The position numbers and the translations under genes are program-made. The notes beneath the pieces are model-generated. The model ran no database searches and had not been told where the DNA came from. It saw nothing but the letters and a program-made list of their open reading frames with translations. A stretch of 34,793 nucleotides of DNA, taken from assembly GCA_013820875.1 (NCBI GenBank), contig JACDHS010000047.1:1-34793 (forward strand), in the 5' to 3' direction. The DNA is from Verrucomicrobiota bacterium. GTDB lineage: Bacteria > Verrucomicrobiota > Verrucomicrobiia > Limisphaerales > JACDHS01. This document shows positions 9,366 through 19,701 of this stretch, in pieces. Within the stretch, counting starts at the first letter, position 1. The number at the start of each line of letters is the position of its first letter.

Positions 9366-11624
9366 ATGAAGGGGCGCAGCTTGCGATCCCGTAAGTTGCT
9401 GGCTGTGGTGCTCCTGGGCTTAATCGGTTTGATCGGTGTCGGCTACTTTGTTTACCAGACCAGGACGCTGCAGGTTTCCGATTTGCCGAATGCAACGCAG
9501 ACCACTTCAACCACCTTCGACAGTTTCGCCGGTTCCAGCAGTTGCCTTGAATGTCATGCGGACCAGTTTAAGGATTGGAAAACCTCTCACCACGCACTCG
9601 CCGAGCGCAATGTCTCCGCCGAACTGGACGACGCGGCATTCGATCCTGAGCGGGAGGTTGTGCATGGTAAACAAACTTCCAGGGTGCAGAAGCGGGATGG
9701 TCAATTCCAATTAGTAACTGAAACCAAACCCGGTCAGACCAATTCCGTTTCACTCGCGCGCGTGATTGGCGTAAATCCGCTCCGCCAATACCTGGTGCCT
9801 GCCGCTGGTGGACGTTTTCAAACCACCGAGCTTGCCTATGATCCGCACCTGGAGGAGTGGTTCAACATGTTTGGCGATGAAGACCGGCGTCCGGGCGAAT
9901 GGGGGCACTGGACAGGGAGGGGGATGACCTGGAATTCCATGTGCGCCAGTTGTCACAACACCGGTCTAGAGAAGAACTACGACGCCATCTCCGACAGCTA
10001 CAAAACCACCATGGTAGAAATGGGCGTCAGTTGCGAATCGTGTCACGGCGGAATGAAACCGCACGTGCAATGGCAGCAGCTCAACCGTGGTAAATCGAAA
10101 AAGGAAAAAGATCCCACCCTCAAACAGTTGACCCGCGATCAAACCCTCGACACCTGCGGTTCATGCCATGCGCGACGCGGCGACCTGACAGGCAAATTTC
10201 TACCGGGCGATTCTTTTCATGATCATTTCAGTCTCACCATTCCGGATGAAACCGATATTTTTTATCCGGACGGACAGGTGCGCGATGAAGATTTCGAATT
10301 CACCGCGTTCCTCGGCAGCAAGATGCACGCGGCGGGTGTTCGATGTGTGGATTGCCACAGTCCGCACACAGGCAAGACGAAGTTGCCGGGCGATGCCCTT
10401 TGTATGCAGTGCCACAACGGTAACATCTTGAATTCGCCGAAGGTTGATCCGCTTACCCATACATTTCACAAGCCCAATACTCCCGGCAGTTCCTGTGTCG
10501 ATTGTCACATGCCCCTCACCACCTACATGGAGAGGCACCCCCGGCGCGATCACGGCTTCACCATTCCCGATCCCCTCTTGACCCTGGAACATGGGATTCC
10601 CAATGCCTGCAATCGTTGTCACTCAGAGCAATCGGCTGATTGGGCGTTGCAACAGGTGGAGCAATGGTATGGCGAAAAAATGGATCGCCGGACCCGTCAC
10701 CGCGCCGACCTGCTGGCCCAGGCGCGTGCCGGAGAAACCAACGCTGTTGCGCCGCTCCTCGAAATGTTGCGCGACGAAACCATTCCACTGTGGCGCGCCT
10801 CCATCGTCACCCTGCTGCGGTCATCGTTGGCCGATCAAAAGGTGATGCAGGAATTACTCGGTCGCACCTCTGATCCAGATCCATTGGTTCGGTCCACCGC
10901 AGCGAGGGCCATCGCCCCTTTGGTTGAGCAACGATTTGCCCCGGCGGAAACCGCTTTGAAGGCGCTCCTGGAGGATGAGTCGCGCCTCGTGCGGATTGAT
11001 GCCGCATGGGCATTGCGACGAAATATCGACACCAACACACCGCCCGGCCAGGACCTCATGGGGTACCTTGCGCTGAACAGCGATCAACCGGTTGGCGCGT
11101 TGCAACTCGGCCATTTCTTTCTCTCGCGCGATGATCTTGGGAATGCCGTGTCTTGTTTTCAACGTGCTGTGAAGTGGGACCCGAACTCCGCTCCGTTGCG
11201 TCACGATTACGCAATCGCCCTGAACCTCTCCGGCAACAATCGGGAGGCAATCGCCCAACTGGAGGAAGCCTGTCGAAGTGCTCCCGGGGAAGCGGAGTAT
11301 CAATACAAACTCGCCCTTGCCTTGAATGAAGCGGGCAATGTCCGTGCCGCGACCGCTGCCCTGGAGCAAACCGTGAAACTCGACCCGCTATATGGGCGCG
11401 CCTGGTACAATCTCGGACTCGCCTACGCCACGAACCAGCGGTTGGATGACGCCGTGAAAGCCCTCGAACGCGCCGAACAGATGGACACTCGTTCCGCAGA
11501 AATTCCCTATGCCCGCGCCACCGTCCTCGCCCGGATGGGACTCGCGGAGGAAGCCCGTGCCGCCGCGAGAATGGCTTTGGAGCGCAACCCGGGATTCACT
11601 GCGGCATCGCAATTCCTGAAATAG
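9366..11624 (+). CDS. Octahaem cytochrome c with HEAT and TPR repeats
   Basis: A 752-residue exported protein. Residues 11-29 form an N-terminal signal anchor. Eight CXXCH haem-binding motifs follow, starting at about residues 60, 193, 223, 264, 327, 346, 377 and 415. Residues about 450-560 read as HEAT-like helical pairs (LLEMLRDETIPLWRASI, DPDPLVRSTAARAIAPL). Residues about 570-752 are TPRs (NAVSCFQRAVKWDPNSAPL and AWYNLGLAYATNQRLDDAV, among others). This fits periplasmic multihaem cytochromes related to the cytochrome c554/nitrite-reductase superfamily, with a protein-binding tail. The redox partner and substrate are unknown. A GGGAG-like ribosome-binding site precedes the ATG. A possible FNR-type site lies upstream. 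Confidence 0.85.
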   Translation: MKGRSLRSRKLLAVVLLGLIGLIGVGYFVYQTRTLQVSDLPNATQTTSTTFDSFAGSSSCLECHADQFKDWKTSHHALAERNVSAELDDAAFDPEREVVHGKQTSRVQKRDGQFQLVTETKPGQTNSVSLARVIGVNPLRQYLVPAAGGRFQTTELAYDPHLEEWFNMFGDEDRRPGEWGHWTGRGMTWNSMCASCHNTGLEKNYDAISDSYKTTMVEMGVSCESCHGGMKPHVQWQQLNRGKSKKEKDPTLKQLTRDQTLDTCGSCHARRGDLTGKFLPGDSFHDHFSLTIPDETDIFYPDGQVRDEDFEFTAFLGSKMHAAGVRCVDCHSPHTGKTKLPGDALCMQCHNGNILNSPKVDPLTHTFHKPNTPGSSCVDCHMPLTTYMERHPRRDHGFTIPDPLLTLEHGIPNACNRCHSEQSADWALQQVEQWYGEKMDRRTRHRADLLAQARAGETNAVAPLLEMLRDETIPLWRASIVTLLRSSLADQKVMQELLGRTSDPDPLVRSTAARAIAPLVEQRFAPAETALKALLEDESRLVRIDAAWALRRNIDTNTPPGQDLMGYLALNSDQPVGALQLGHFFLSRDDLGNAVSCFQRAVKWDPNSAPLRHDYAIALNLSGNNREAIAQLEEACRSAPGEAEYQYKLALALNEAGNVRAATAALEQTVKLDPLYGRAWYNLGLAYATNQRLDDAVKALERAEQMDTRSAEIPYARATVLARMGLAEEARAAARMALERNPGFTAASQFLK

Positions 11625-12121: not shown

Positions 12122-14545
12122 ATGGAAATGACCGTCGAGCAGGTTTGTGATGAGACGCTGGAGCTGCCGAGCGTACCCCGGGCATTTCTTGTGGATCGCC
12201 ATGGTCCTGGTTTGAAACTTTTCCTGGCCCTTCTCCTGTTTCCGCTTTTTGCCACAACCGGAGTGGCCCAGACGATGCTCAAGCTTTCCGCTGTCAAGCC
12301 CGGCACGGAGCGTGTGCAGTTGATTAACAACGGCGACTTCCAGTTTCAGGGACCACTCGTGGGCGGTAGTTACCCTTCTCCGACTGGCTGGAGCAGTTTC
12401 GGTACTTCGGTCGATTTGTCCGCCGGTGTCGGATCCAACATGGTTACCGTGAACAGCGGCGTCGTGGCCCGCGGACAGGTAAACAATGGCGTGCCGGCTA
12501 TCGGGTACATCCAGACCGTCACCCTTGAGCCGGCGACTGCCTATGTGCTCAGCGCCTATCTTTGGAACATGGGGGCGGGGACGAACCGTGTGAACACGGT
12601 CGTTGACTTCAGCGATGCGCCTTCCGAACCGCAACTTCTGCTGACGGCGGGCAATTCCGACGCGGCTGAAGGTTATTTTGTTTACCGCAGCTTTAACACC
12701 AGCAACACCGGGACCAATGTCACCGTGCGCGTCTTCTATGACGGATTGACCGGCATTGGCTCTGCGCCCGCGTATCATCCCCTGGCAGCGCAATGGGATA
12801 ATATCGCGATCACCAAAAGCACCAGTTTTGTCGCACCCCGATCCAGTGGTTCGACTGCCACTCTGCGGCCGCTGGTGAGGATCACGAGTCCGGTCACTGG
12901 TATTTACGCGTATGCCTCGGAAAACGCGCTGCCTCTCCATGCTGATGCCGAAGATCTGGATGGCACGATCGTTAAGGTTCAATACTTCGCCGGGACAATC
13001 AAGGTCGCCGAAGTATTGACCAACCCCTGGACCGCCTACTGGAACGACCCGGTGCCCGGGTTTTGTGTCCTGACGGCAGTGGCTACTGACGACAGGGGAG
13101 CGACGACCGTCTCTGCTCCGGTTTGGGTGAACGTGATCAATCCGCCGTCGTCGCCCGTGGCGCAGATTGCAAAAGGAATTGAGGAAGTCATTCTCTCCTG
13201 GCCGTTGAGCGGTAGTGGTGACGGCATGATCGCGGAGAGCACTTCGAACCTTCTTTCTCCTACATGGACGAGACTCACCAATACCGTGCAGGTGATCGGT
13301 TCCTCGAACAGGCTCACCGTGCCGGTCGGCGCCGGGCCGCAGTATTTCCGACTGACCGCAGAAGTGGACGCGAGCACGCTGACGGGCAAACACATGATGG
13401 GCTATCAAGGATGGTTCGCCACTCCCGGCGACGGTTCATCCGGCGACCGTTGGAATCATTGGTTTCGCGGTCAGAACCCGATTGCCTCCGAAGCAACGGT
13501 TGATGCCTGGCCCGATCTTTCCGAGCTGGATCCGGACGAGCTTTTCCCCACGGGAATGACCTATCCCAACGGCGCTCCTGCCATGCTTTACTCGGCTTAT
13601 AACGAAAAGACCGTGCGCCGACATTTTAAATGGATGAGAGAACACCACCTCGATGGTGTATTCCTGCAACGATTCACCGGCGAGATTTACAGTTCTCAAA
13701 ACTTCGACCGGCTGAACAAGGTGGCCGATAATGTTCGCAGGGGAGCGGAGGCTCACCGCCGGGTCTTCGCGCTGATGTACGACATCTCGGGCCAGCCCAC
13801 CAACACTCTGGTGAGCGCTTTGACCAACGACTGGCTTTACCTGGCGAACACGCTCCGGATCACCAACAGCCCCAATTACCTGCGCCACAACGGCAAGCCG
13901 GTCGTGGCGCTGTGGGGTTTTGGGTTCGCCGGCCGGTCTGATACACCGCAGCAGGCACAGGAGGTGATCAATTTCTTCAAGAACGCGGGTCTGACCGTCA
14001 TGGGCGGAGTGCCGACCTACTGGCGCACACTCAAAACCGACACGCAATCGAACCCAGCCTGGGCACCGGTATTTCGCTCCTTCGATATCATCAGTCCCTG
14101 GGCCGTGGGCAGGTATGGTAACCTCGCGGGTGCCGACAGCTTCAGGCAGAATTTAATCGTGCCTGACATGACGGAAGCCCTTGCCATTGGACGCGACTAC
14201 ATGCCCGTGATCTTTCCCGGGTTCTCCTGGCACAACCTGCATGGCGGCGCATTGAACCAGATCCCGCGCCAGGGCGGGACGTTTTATTGGCGCCAGGCCT
14301 ACAATGCAAAACTCTCCGGATGCACCATGCTTTACACTGCGATGTTCGACGAGGTCGATGAAGCCACTGCCATGTATAAAATGGCGGCCACCGCGAATGA
14401 TGTGCCGGCGCAAGGATCGTGGGTTCCGCTGAACATTGATGGCACCTCAGTTCCCAGCGATTGGTATCTGCGCCTCGCAAACGAAGCATCCAAAATGTTG
14501 CGTGGCGATATTCCCCTGCAAAGCACCATTCCCATCACCCCCTGA
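12122..14545 (+). CDS. Secreted GH99/GH71-like glycoside hydrolase with Ig-like modules
   Basis: An 807-residue exported protein. A long n-region leads to a hydrophobic signal segment (residues 32-49, LKLFLALLLFPLFATTGVAQ). Residues about 60-245 form a jelly-roll-like N-terminal module. Residues about 250-345 are an Ig-like domain (VRITSPVTGIY to VWVNV), followed by a short linker module. The catalytic region is about 425-800. It opens with MMGYQGWFATPGDGS-RWNHWFRG and carries HHLDGVFLQRF, VFALMYDISG and MFDEVDEATAMYK, typical of GH99-like xylosidase/arabinosidase annotations. The acidic DEVDE cluster is the probable catalytic region. The substrate is likely a plant or microbial glycan but is not determinable from sequence. 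A start two codons later is also possible. Confidence 0.75.
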   Translation: MEMTVEQVCDETLELPSVPRAFLVDRHGPGLKLFLALLLFPLFATTGVAQTMLKLSAVKPGTERVQLINNGDFQFQGPLVGGSYPSPTGWSSFGTSVDLSAGVGSNMVTVNSGVVARGQVNNGVPAIGYIQTVTLEPATAYVLSAYLWNMGAGTNRVNTVVDFSDAPSEPQLLLTAGNSDAAEGYFVYRSFNTSNTGTNVTVRVFYDGLTGIGSAPAYHPLAAQWDNIAITKSTSFVAPRSSGSTATLRPLVRITSPVTGIYAYASENALPLHADAEDLDGTIVKVQYFAGTIKVAEVLTNPWTAYWNDPVPGFCVLTAVATDDRGATTVSAPVWVNVINPPSSPVAQIAKGIEEVILSWPLSGSGDGMIAESTSNLLSPTWTRLTNTVQVIGSSNRLTVPVGAGPQYFRLTAEVDASTLTGKHMMGYQGWFATPGDGSSGDRWNHWFRGQNPIASEATVDAWPDLSELDPDELFPTGMTYPNGAPAMLYSAYNEKTVRRHFKWMREHHLDGVFLQRFTGEIYSSQNFDRLNKVADNVRRGAEAHRRVFALMYDISGQPTNTLVSALTNDWLYLANTLRITNSPNYLRHNGKPVVALWGFGFAGRSDTPQQAQEVINFFKNAGLTVMGGVPTYWRTLKTDTQSNPAWAPVFRSFDIISPWAVGRYGNLAGADSFRQNLIVPDMTEALAIGRDYMPVIFPGFSWHNLHGGALNQIPRQGGTFYWRQAYNAKLSGCTMLYTAMFDEVDEATAMYKMAATANDVPAQGSWVPLNIDGTSVPSDWYLRLANEASKMLRGDIPLQSTIPITP

Positions 14546-14663: not shown

Positions 14664-14723
14664 TGTAAACACCGAGCAACCGGTGACCCCAGTGCAACCC
14701 ATTGCAAAACAACTACTTGGAAC

Positions 14724-15111
14724 GGTATGCGTGCGGTTCCTACCGAGTGACCTTTTAACAGTAAAAGGTATGTGTGCGTTCCCGTCGAGTGACCTTTTAA
14801 CGGTAAAAGGTATGCGTGCGGCTCCCGCCGAGTGGCCTTTTAACGGTAAAAGGTATGTGTGCGGCTCCCACCGAGTGACCTTTTAACAGTAAAAGGTATG
14901 TGTGCGGCTCCCACCGAGTGACCTTTTAACGGTAAAAGGTATGCGTGCGGTTCCCGCCGAGTGACCTTTTACCGGTAAAAGGTGTGTGTGCGGATCCCGC
15001 CGAGTGACCTTTTACCGGTAAAAGGTATGTGTGCGGCTCCCACCGAGTGGCCTTTTAACAGTAAAAGGTATGCCTGCGGTTCCCACCAAGTGACCTTTTA
15101 CCGGTAAAAGA
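14724..15111. repeat. Tandem array of nine palindromes at 43-bp spacing
   Basis: Nine copies of a 20-bp palindrome, best form ACCTTTTACCGGTAAAAGGT, begin at 14750, 14792, 14835, 14878, 14921, 14964, 15007, 15050 and 15093. The period is 43 bp, with one 42-bp step. The 23-bp intervals are themselves conserved (ATGTGTGCGGCTCCCACCGAGTG with C/T and A/G changes), so this is a tandem repeat and not a CRISPR. Most differences at the palindrome centre (AACAG, AACGG, ACCGG) keep the arms paired. The period is not a multiple of three and no start or ribosome-binding site fits, so coding is unlikely. Confidence 0.9.
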
Positions 15112-15310
15112 TTCACCATATCTATCAAGGCTCTTCCATCTGGGAATATCTCTGATGCTGGTTGGGCTTCCGGTTTGATCATCGCAGTGCTCGTTTTGGG
15201 GCGATGCCGTTCCCATTGGCATCGCTTCGGCGATTCTTGCAGAGTTCCTGATTTCTTTTCCATCCGTTAACCCTCCAAGGCAATTTCGGTGTATGAGATT
15301 ACCGATTTGA
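15112..15310. other. Spacer with one hairpin
   Basis: No gene is recognised. GCGATGCC (15201-15208) and GGCATCGC (15218-15225) form a perfect 8-bp stem with a 9-base loop and no T-tract. It lies beyond the 3' end of the gene remnant on the minus strand and might have been its transcript end. Confidence 0.4.
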
Positions 15311-15785: not shown

Positions 15786-16400
15786 TCATTTCGATGGCGC
15801 TTTGATTTGCTCTGCTTTAACGAACGGTTCCAGGTATTCGCCGTAACCTTCCTCGTCCATTTTTTCGACAGGGATAAAACGGAGAGAGGCGGAGTTAATG
15901 CAATAGCGCTGGCGGGTTGGAGCGGGGCCGTCGTTGAACAGGTGGCCAAGGTGCGAGTCGGCATCCCTGGATCGGACTTCGACCCGGACCATTCCGTGGG
16001 ATTTGTCGTCTTTTTCCACGACATTCGTTTTTGCGATCGACCGGGTGAAGCTGGGCCAGCCGGTGCCGGAATCAAATTTATCCTGGGAACTGAAAAGCGG
16101 TTCGCCGGAGACGATATCGACGTAGATACCGGGCTTTTTGTTATCCCAGTAGGCATTGCGAAAAGGTGGTTCGGTTCCGCACTGTTGTGTGACGTGCAGT
16201 TGCATGGGGTCCAGTTTTCGGAGTGCTTCCTCTTTGGAACTGGTCTCTTTCGGCTTGCTGTTGGAATTTGTCATGACTTGAGTGGTGGTGTTGGTAGTTC
16301 CCGGTTTGAGGACGGCAGGAGTGTTGGTTTGTGAAACCGCCAAGGCGGCCAACATTGCGCCGACACCAATCAATCCGGTAACTCGCACAAGCAACTTCAT
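15786..16400 (-). CDS. msrB: Peptide-methionine (R)-S-oxide reductase, exported
   Basis: Reduces methionine-R-sulfoxide in oxidised proteins. The 204-residue precursor has a signal peptide ([24 protein letters not shown]) and a low-complexity Thr/Ser/Lys linker to about residue 55. The MsrB domain follows. Its motifs are [54 protein letters not shown] and the catalytic-cysteine motif [11 protein letters not shown]. The frame is open 12 codons further upstream, but the ATG at 16400 follows AGGA and starts a good signal peptide. The CXXC zinc pairs of many MsrBs are absent. The enzyme probably acts in the periplasm as an oxidative repair enzyme. It is divergent from the regulator gene, with a repeat element between them. 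Confidence 0.88.
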
Positions 16401-16502
16401 CTTCCTATAAACTCGCGAACAGGACATTGTTTGCAAGCGAAAGATTTTGAAGCGAGAAGGGGTGAGGGATTAAAGTGGGTGAGATTGCGGCGCGCATGAA
16501 AA

Positions 16503-18926: not shown

Positions 18927-19509
18927 CCCCTTGAAAACACTACTCCAATCAATGTTTTTAGTGGTTTTCTTCACTTTCCCACTCCAAGCCCCAAATGTAA
19001 CCAGATGCAACGGAAGGAAACAAAATACCACTAAATGAAGGCTTAATGGTTACTGTTGTGGTTACTGGTTATTTCCACCGTTTACTTCGGAAGTGCTCTG
19101 CCTGCCGCTTTCGTATTGCTGGCGGGAGTGCTGTTTTTAATTTGGGGAATTCTTTGGATCTTGTTTCCAGTGTTCGGTTTAACGAGTGGCTGTGGTAGGG
19201 GATCCAAGTGGTGGTGATGTAGTTCGTTTTTGGTGTTCGGAAGATTTTGGTTCTGTTTTGGCCAGGCGAGTACACACCGCTTCCACGGAGTTTTGTTTTT
19301 GGTATCTTTGCCGCTGCTCAGGCGGCCAGCGCCAGTGCGTCTCTTTGTTCCAGCCGCTCCAGTCCCCACAAGTTGTGTGTCACGAAACATTTTGGGGATT
19401 CTCCGATTCGGTTTCAATTTTGTGTGTTTTTGCGGGCAGGTGCGGAAGCTTCATCCGGGCAAATTGTCGAAAAATAAGGGTTTTTTCACTTTGGGGCGCC
19501 AGAAACGTG
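18927..19509. other. Gene-poor stretch downstream of tRNA-Thr
   Basis: No recognisable gene. Short frames on both strands have unlikely composition, and one is just the antisense of the tRNA. The motif GTAACC near 18997 and GGTTAC twice near 19048-19067 form scattered inverted copies. The base composition is more T-rich and irregular than in the flanking genes, consistent with imported or decayed DNA. Confidence 0.4.
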
Positions 19510-19701
19510 GCCTGGATGGTCTCAAGGCCACTTGAATATCATTTCAAAACCGCCTGGACGGTCTCAAGGCCACTTAGATTTCATATCAAAACCGCCTGGA
19601 TGGTCTCAAGGCCACTTGAATATCATATCAAAACCGCCTGGATGGTCTCAAGGCCACTTGAATATCATTTCGAAATCGTCTGGATGGTCTCAAGGTCACT
19701 T
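19510..19701 (+). repeat. 42-bp tandem repeat, four full copies and one partial
   Basis: Units begin at 19510, 19552, 19594, 19636 and, truncated, 19678. The first 20 bases of the consensus unit are GCCTGGATGGTCTCAAGGCC, and it continues with ACTTGAATATCATWTCAAAACC. Each unit contains the small inverted repeat CAAG-GCCA-CTTG. Because 42 is a multiple of three, the array is open in one frame (a 14-residue repeat, WMVSRPLEYHIKTA), but the surrounding frame has no family match or ribosome-binding site. A minisatellite is the safer reading. Confidence 0.85.

Follow-up and report, generated by a model that had tools for sequence, protein, structure and literature searches.

The locus described here raises the question of whether nine regularly spaced palindromes in a Verrucomicrobiota genome form one special site or belong to a wider class of repeats, and of what maintains their spacing. 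The window (the whole stretch of DNA analysed, 34,793 nucleotides) is contig C55 of an assembly of 5.70 Mb in 239 contigs. A phosphotransacetylase query matched best, at up to 86%, in records of Pedosphaera/Limisphaerales-type Verrucomicrobiota. According to TRF, a tandem array occupies positions 14724–15110, with a period of 43, 9.0 copies, 89% match and 0 indels. Each unit combines a single 20-bp palindrome with a spacer of 23 bp, or of 22 bp in the short unit. The array is intergenic, located between a Big_7-domain protein gene upstream (12122–14545, + strand) and an msrB-like gene on the other side (15786–16436, − strand). The repeat features of the window are as follows.

14694–14723, + strand: left end (leader) of the family-A element, running into the array without a gap
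14724–15112, + strand: array of nine 42/43-bp units; this strand reads CCGAGTGACC
14750–14769, no strand assigned: palindrome 1, from the site coordinates
15112–15132, + strand: possible tail TTCACCAT..ATCAAGGCT, seen by eye, also beside the C132 array, and unreported in the conserved-flank search at E 1e-3
about 19400–19509, + strand: leader of the second array, with the core TCGAAAAATAAGGG...CGTGG from about 19467
19510–19701, + strand: second array, of another family, with 42-bp units in 4.6 copies (TRF)

Elsewhere in the window, positions 9366–11624 encode a 752-aa protein with multihaem cytochrome matches and with HEAT and TPR repeats.

The nine palindromes are real. They span 14750–15112, with starts at 14750, 14792, 14835, 14878, 14921, 14964, 15007, 15050 and 15093, and a motif scan of the window gave 18 matches, corresponding to both strands of the nine sites (mean 0.00 in 100 shuffles). 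The preliminary description had the sites phased at 43 bp and all on one face of the DNA. The spacing is indeed 43 bp in seven of the eight steps, but the first step is 42 bp. At 10.5 bp per turn the sites share no face, site 9 being rotated by 240 degrees from site 1, and sites 2 to 9 are in line only near 10.75 bp per turn; thus, strict helical phasing is rejected for this 43-bp array. It was also claimed that most changes in the palindrome centre stay symmetric. This is not borne out: the symmetric centre (ACCGGT) is present in only three of the nine sites, the other six have AACGGT or AACAGT, and symmetry over all ten pairs is perfect in only two. The array folds strongly as a single strand (z −10 against shuffles), which shows palindromy, not function.

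In order to survey the genome, an unbiased sample of 40 stretches (559 kb) was picked regardless of family A, to which the window array belongs, and its sister family B; one of these stretches (C20:30001–50000) by chance holds a weak family-B match. Arrays were accepted at a TRF score of at least 110 and a period of at least 12, and sub-period rows and overlapping multiples were merged. All 28 arrays in this sample have periods of 41 (11 arrays), 42 (9) or 43 (8). Together with the window and the biased stretches (922 kb in total), 50 of 50 arrays fall at 41–43 (13, 14 and 23, respectively). The first 41 arrays form 15 sequence clusters, and 17 non-redundant units are not joined by BLAST. About 17 families, mutually unrelated in sequence, therefore have one common period. 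Family A also forms long arrays on C68, C132, C222 and C76. Family B is found on C6, C229, C123, C120, C38, C12 and C95, and a further variant on C114; families A and B have the same layout, a 20-bp palindrome with a spacer of 23 bp. An array is located within 300 bp of a stretch end, mostly a contig end, in 18 of the 50 cases, indicating that the arrays break this assembly. A rough extrapolation from 28 arrays in 559 kb gives about 200–300 arrays in this genome, a figure inflated by the many sampled stretches that begin at a contig end, since assemblies break at arrays. These results show that the window array belongs to a class of dispersed non-coding satellites found throughout the genome, in which the length is held at 41–43 bp and the sequence is free.

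The period extends beyond this genome. In G001, a genome from a second genus of the same family, 163 kb contained ten arrays, seven at 41–42 and the others at 166 (about four units), 63 and 144; additional G001 loci again gave 41–42-bp arrays. Among order-level relatives, 40 stretches (620 kb) held four arrays, one of period 42, and 80 named loci of the order (1.17 Mb) held nine arrays with a score of at least 90, four of them at 41–42; the nearest relative, L184, carries two of these four. The G001 sequences are other than those of the window genome. Looked for outside the window, as the preliminary description had proposed, the palindrome family recurs on four other contigs of its own genome, but the window array has no match in G001 or in 56 order-level genomes (57 relatives), and the second array with its leader has none in G001. 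A second genus of the family therefore has this period but different sequences. A blastn search against plasmids and phages gave no match to the window array. Pattern scans of genome contigs and viral contigs, sets from which the window's own genome may be absent, returned nothing. Three G001 loci (L338, L340 and L343) carry 41-bp arrays with TTCTCACGTGAGAA-type palindromes, whose core CACGTG resembles the ParB site parS; families other than theirs do not resemble parS.

Palindromy is a common property of these units. For the 17 families of the own genome, the best palindromy score is 5.8 against 3.9 in shuffles, and none of 200 shuffle sets was as high; for 11 arrays of the relatives, the score is 6.3 against 3.8 (0 of 300 sets). 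In the 42 of 50 arrays used for the divergence test (eight were excluded for too few units), stem columns diverge by 5.9% and the remaining columns by 10.3%, and the stem value is lower in 32 arrays. Between families A and B, the arms have changed in pairs (TTTT/AAAA versus TTCC/GGAA); this count excludes 7 of the 89 units, which had too few pairs. Within arrays, in contrast, covariation is weak relative to shuffles (pairs changed on both sides, 36 versus 36.0; cells, 49 versus 40.5; paired cells, 510 versus 487.6), and strong within-array compensation is therefore rejected. Two palindromes about half a unit apart are present in many families, to an extent that depends on the scorer: two dyads at least 19 bp apart were found by one scorer in 8 of 17 own families and 5 of 11 arrays of relatives (shuffles, 17 and 15%), and by the other in 9 of 17 and 3 of 11 (shuffles, 28%). 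In the 42 arrays, the transition bias of the stem columns runs opposite to that of the spacer columns, array by array (r −0.52), which could arise from weaker second palindromes in the spacer.

In most multi-copy families, one or both of the flanks directly adjoining the array are conserved; the flank comparison found no conserved flank in the family of L108, L110 and L118. The leader of the second array has 36 matches in its own genome, itself included, at E of at most 0.01. Thirty copies were fetched. A TRF-detected 42-bp array follows directly in 22 of these, only one or two units follow in four (L306, L317, L320 and L327), three are cut by a contig end (L309, L326 and L331), and one (L322) has a broken leader, its array lying 219 bp further on. 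This one leader precedes several unit types that are not joined by BLAST, and by eye the tails are common to L316, which has one unit type, and to L312 and L323, which have another. Behind one leader, the number of units ranges from 1 to about 11. No polarity was detected in 20 arrays with at least four units (interior differences, 2.2 near the leader and 2.1 far from it). The last units of the 20 leader-linked arrays are the most divergent, partly from running into the tail. A separate leader, found four times, belongs to family A: a 97% identical 30-bp stretch at C55 and a longer leader at C68, C132 and C181. Several families are thus shown to be discrete elements, in which a conserved leader and a tail frame the row of palindromic units. 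The preliminary description regarded freely varying copy number and sequence with no preference for symmetry as the mark of a neutral minisatellite; the copy number does vary, but a lack of symmetry preference is not seen.

Three further observations concern the flanks. At L120 (13950–14500), a family-A type leader with a single degenerate unit lies roughly 170 bp away from a 41-bp array of unrelated sequence, indicating that different families can adjoin. The family-B loci L101, L103 and L104 have a common flank with a long perfect inverted repeat around TGTACTGGCAAAATTTG, possibly the end of another repeat element. A AACCGCTAATCTGCGCTAAT-like dispersed sequence adjoins arrays at L039, L042, L043 and L322, as judged by eye.

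According to a home-made gene finder, none of the 50 arrays overlaps a predicted gene. For the 29 arrays with genes on both sides, the gaps are divergent in 12 cases, tandem in 10 and convergent in 7, compared with 47.0, 77.9 and 23.5 kb of background gap sequence, respectively. No clear gene-placement rule is seen. Among 114 predicted proteins near arrays, no neighbour recurs convincingly; in the best cluster, four of seven members are near arrays.

Subirana and Messeguer reportedly named repeat lengths of 22/44 and 52 nt in J Bacteriol in 2020. In two of their other papers, bacterial satellites of constant size and variable sequence have lengths of 20–21 or 52 nt, a few lengths of 40–41 are noted as kin of the 20–21 class, and a nucleoid-protein or RNA function is suggested, not proven (PMC8161180, PMC8625621). 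As far as that text describes them, those satellites are like the present arrays in being non-coding, with about 4–10 units, one length per genome, unrelated families and species-specific sequences. All of this is found here: one length in 50 of 50 arrays, several families, no overlap with genes, and sequences restricted to the species. Palindromy is also present in 20 published Bacillus 52-nt units (best 6.3 versus 4.1 shuffled). Unlike the 20–21 and 52 nt described in the available text, 41–43 nt is the sole class here, and the host belongs to Verrucomicrobiota; a conserved leader, and a tail common to different unit families, are not described there. The Leptospira interrogans satellites are also non-coding families dispersed in one genome, but several repeat lengths (37, 46 and 69 are listed) occur there, according to the part of the paper available, as opposed to one here (PMC6749651). 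REP/BIME repeats, reported in the Verrucomicrobium Opitutus terrae, are likewise extragenic, clustered and dispersed palindromes in the available description (PMC3733652); the present arrays differ in being head-to-tail with a fixed period and in lacking a RAYT link in seven Y1 loci. As in CRISPR arrays, a leader is followed by repeats, but the entire 43-bp unit is repeated, unique spacers are absent and divergence shows no CRISPR-like polarity. Literature searches turned up no description of such arrays in this lineage.

The explanation we favour is a lattice of dyads in double-stranded DNA, read by a dimeric architectural protein. Neighbouring dyads would be about four helical turns apart, or perhaps two plus two turns in some families, and the reader or readers would be nucleoid-type proteins for which spacing and two-fold symmetry matter more than any particular sequence. 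Copies would spread as leader–array–tail elements, and the unit number would shift through unequal recombination or slippage. In favour of the lattice are the one period across many families, the lack of overlap with genes, the palindromy of the units and their better-conserved stems, the paired arm changes between families A and B, the missing strand preference and the conserved flanks. The preliminary description had suggested cooperative binding of a dimeric protein; palindromy above chance across the families keeps this idea in play, but the strict phasing and the symmetric centre changes attached to it are lost. Against the lattice, 41 and 43 bp are not both in phase at one fixed helical repeat, covariation within arrays is weak, the two-dyad spacing varies with the scorer, and no neighbour protein recurs convincingly. 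We know of no binding protein for these arrays, and none was found. This mechanism by itself is a tentative proposal, held at somewhat less than even confidence; the genome-wide 41–43-bp satellite identity and the lattice, taken jointly, come close to an even balance. Ranked in the order we favour, the lattice is followed by selfish expansion as a close second and hairpin RNA as third. Selfish or neutral palindromic elements, small and mobile and with conserved ends, in which slippage or unequal crossing-over multiplies an inner hairpin unit and the step comes from the amplification (e.g. hairpin-guided slippage) and not from a function, are a real though doubtful possibility. Such elements agree with the discrete ends and the dispersal, with the varying unit number behind one leader, divergent end units and missing inner polarity, and with the indifference to gene context and the restriction of sequences to one genome. 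Simple slippage, however, leaves one period in about 17 families and a second genus unexplained, and no transposase is tied to the arrays: the genome has seven Y1_Tnp matches, and an array lies within 1.5 kb of only one of these loci, on one side. The same result makes REP/BIME-type repeats mobilised by a RAYT (Y1) transposase very improbable, even though the arrays are clustered extragenic palindromes and Y1 genes are present; none of the seven loci has a Y1 gene with matching units on both sides.

Transcribed arrays would give strings of hairpin RNA acting as an RNA sponge or as small RNAs, as suggested for Bacillus satellites, and transcription of such satellites is documented in B. coagulans (PMC8625621). 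On one strand of family B, 61 cells hold G-T type pairs and 7 hold A-C type pairs, and the window array folds well as a single strand. This bias is not significant against the family's own spacer (p 0.23), and wobble-type changes have no strand preference genome-wide (63 versus 60 columns, lopsidedness p 0.44). A strand-specific pairing constraint of a structured RNA is thus absent, the apparently strong RNA-strand constraint of family B is rejected, and action as double-stranded DNA is inferred from the missing strand preference. The orientation to genes is inconsistent, and an Rfam search of the window matched only a tRNA. We consider the RNA explanation improbable. A single special site (a partition site, phage operator or repressor array), also raised in the preliminary description, would account for nine consecutive dyads, but it is hardly credible for an array whose period recurs in many others with unrelated palindromes, with family A in long arrays on four other contigs, no plasmid, phage or viral-contig match, and ordinary genes as neighbours.

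To our knowledge, no function is established for bacterial satellites of fixed length and free sequence. They have been described as enigmatic (PMC8161180). The kind is already known as constant-size, variable-sequence satellites. What is new is that 41–43 bp is the only period found in a Verrucomicrobiota genome, that it is present in a second genus with other sequences, and that different unit families have conserved ends in common. On a speculative and rather unlikely reading, the leader–array–tail elements may form a dedicated satellite system, the conserved ends being the handle of a process that makes and renews palindromic arrays at a fixed four-turn period while their sequence can be replaced freely; this would be a habit inherited at family level in Pedosphaerales, and satellites of 21, 42 and 52 nt in unrelated bacteria may share one length rule. 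Many arrays in one genome, a relative sharing only the period, and shared ends provide a clean setting for asking how the length is read and how the arrays are made, and a little-studied kind of satellite is now testable in a new phylum.
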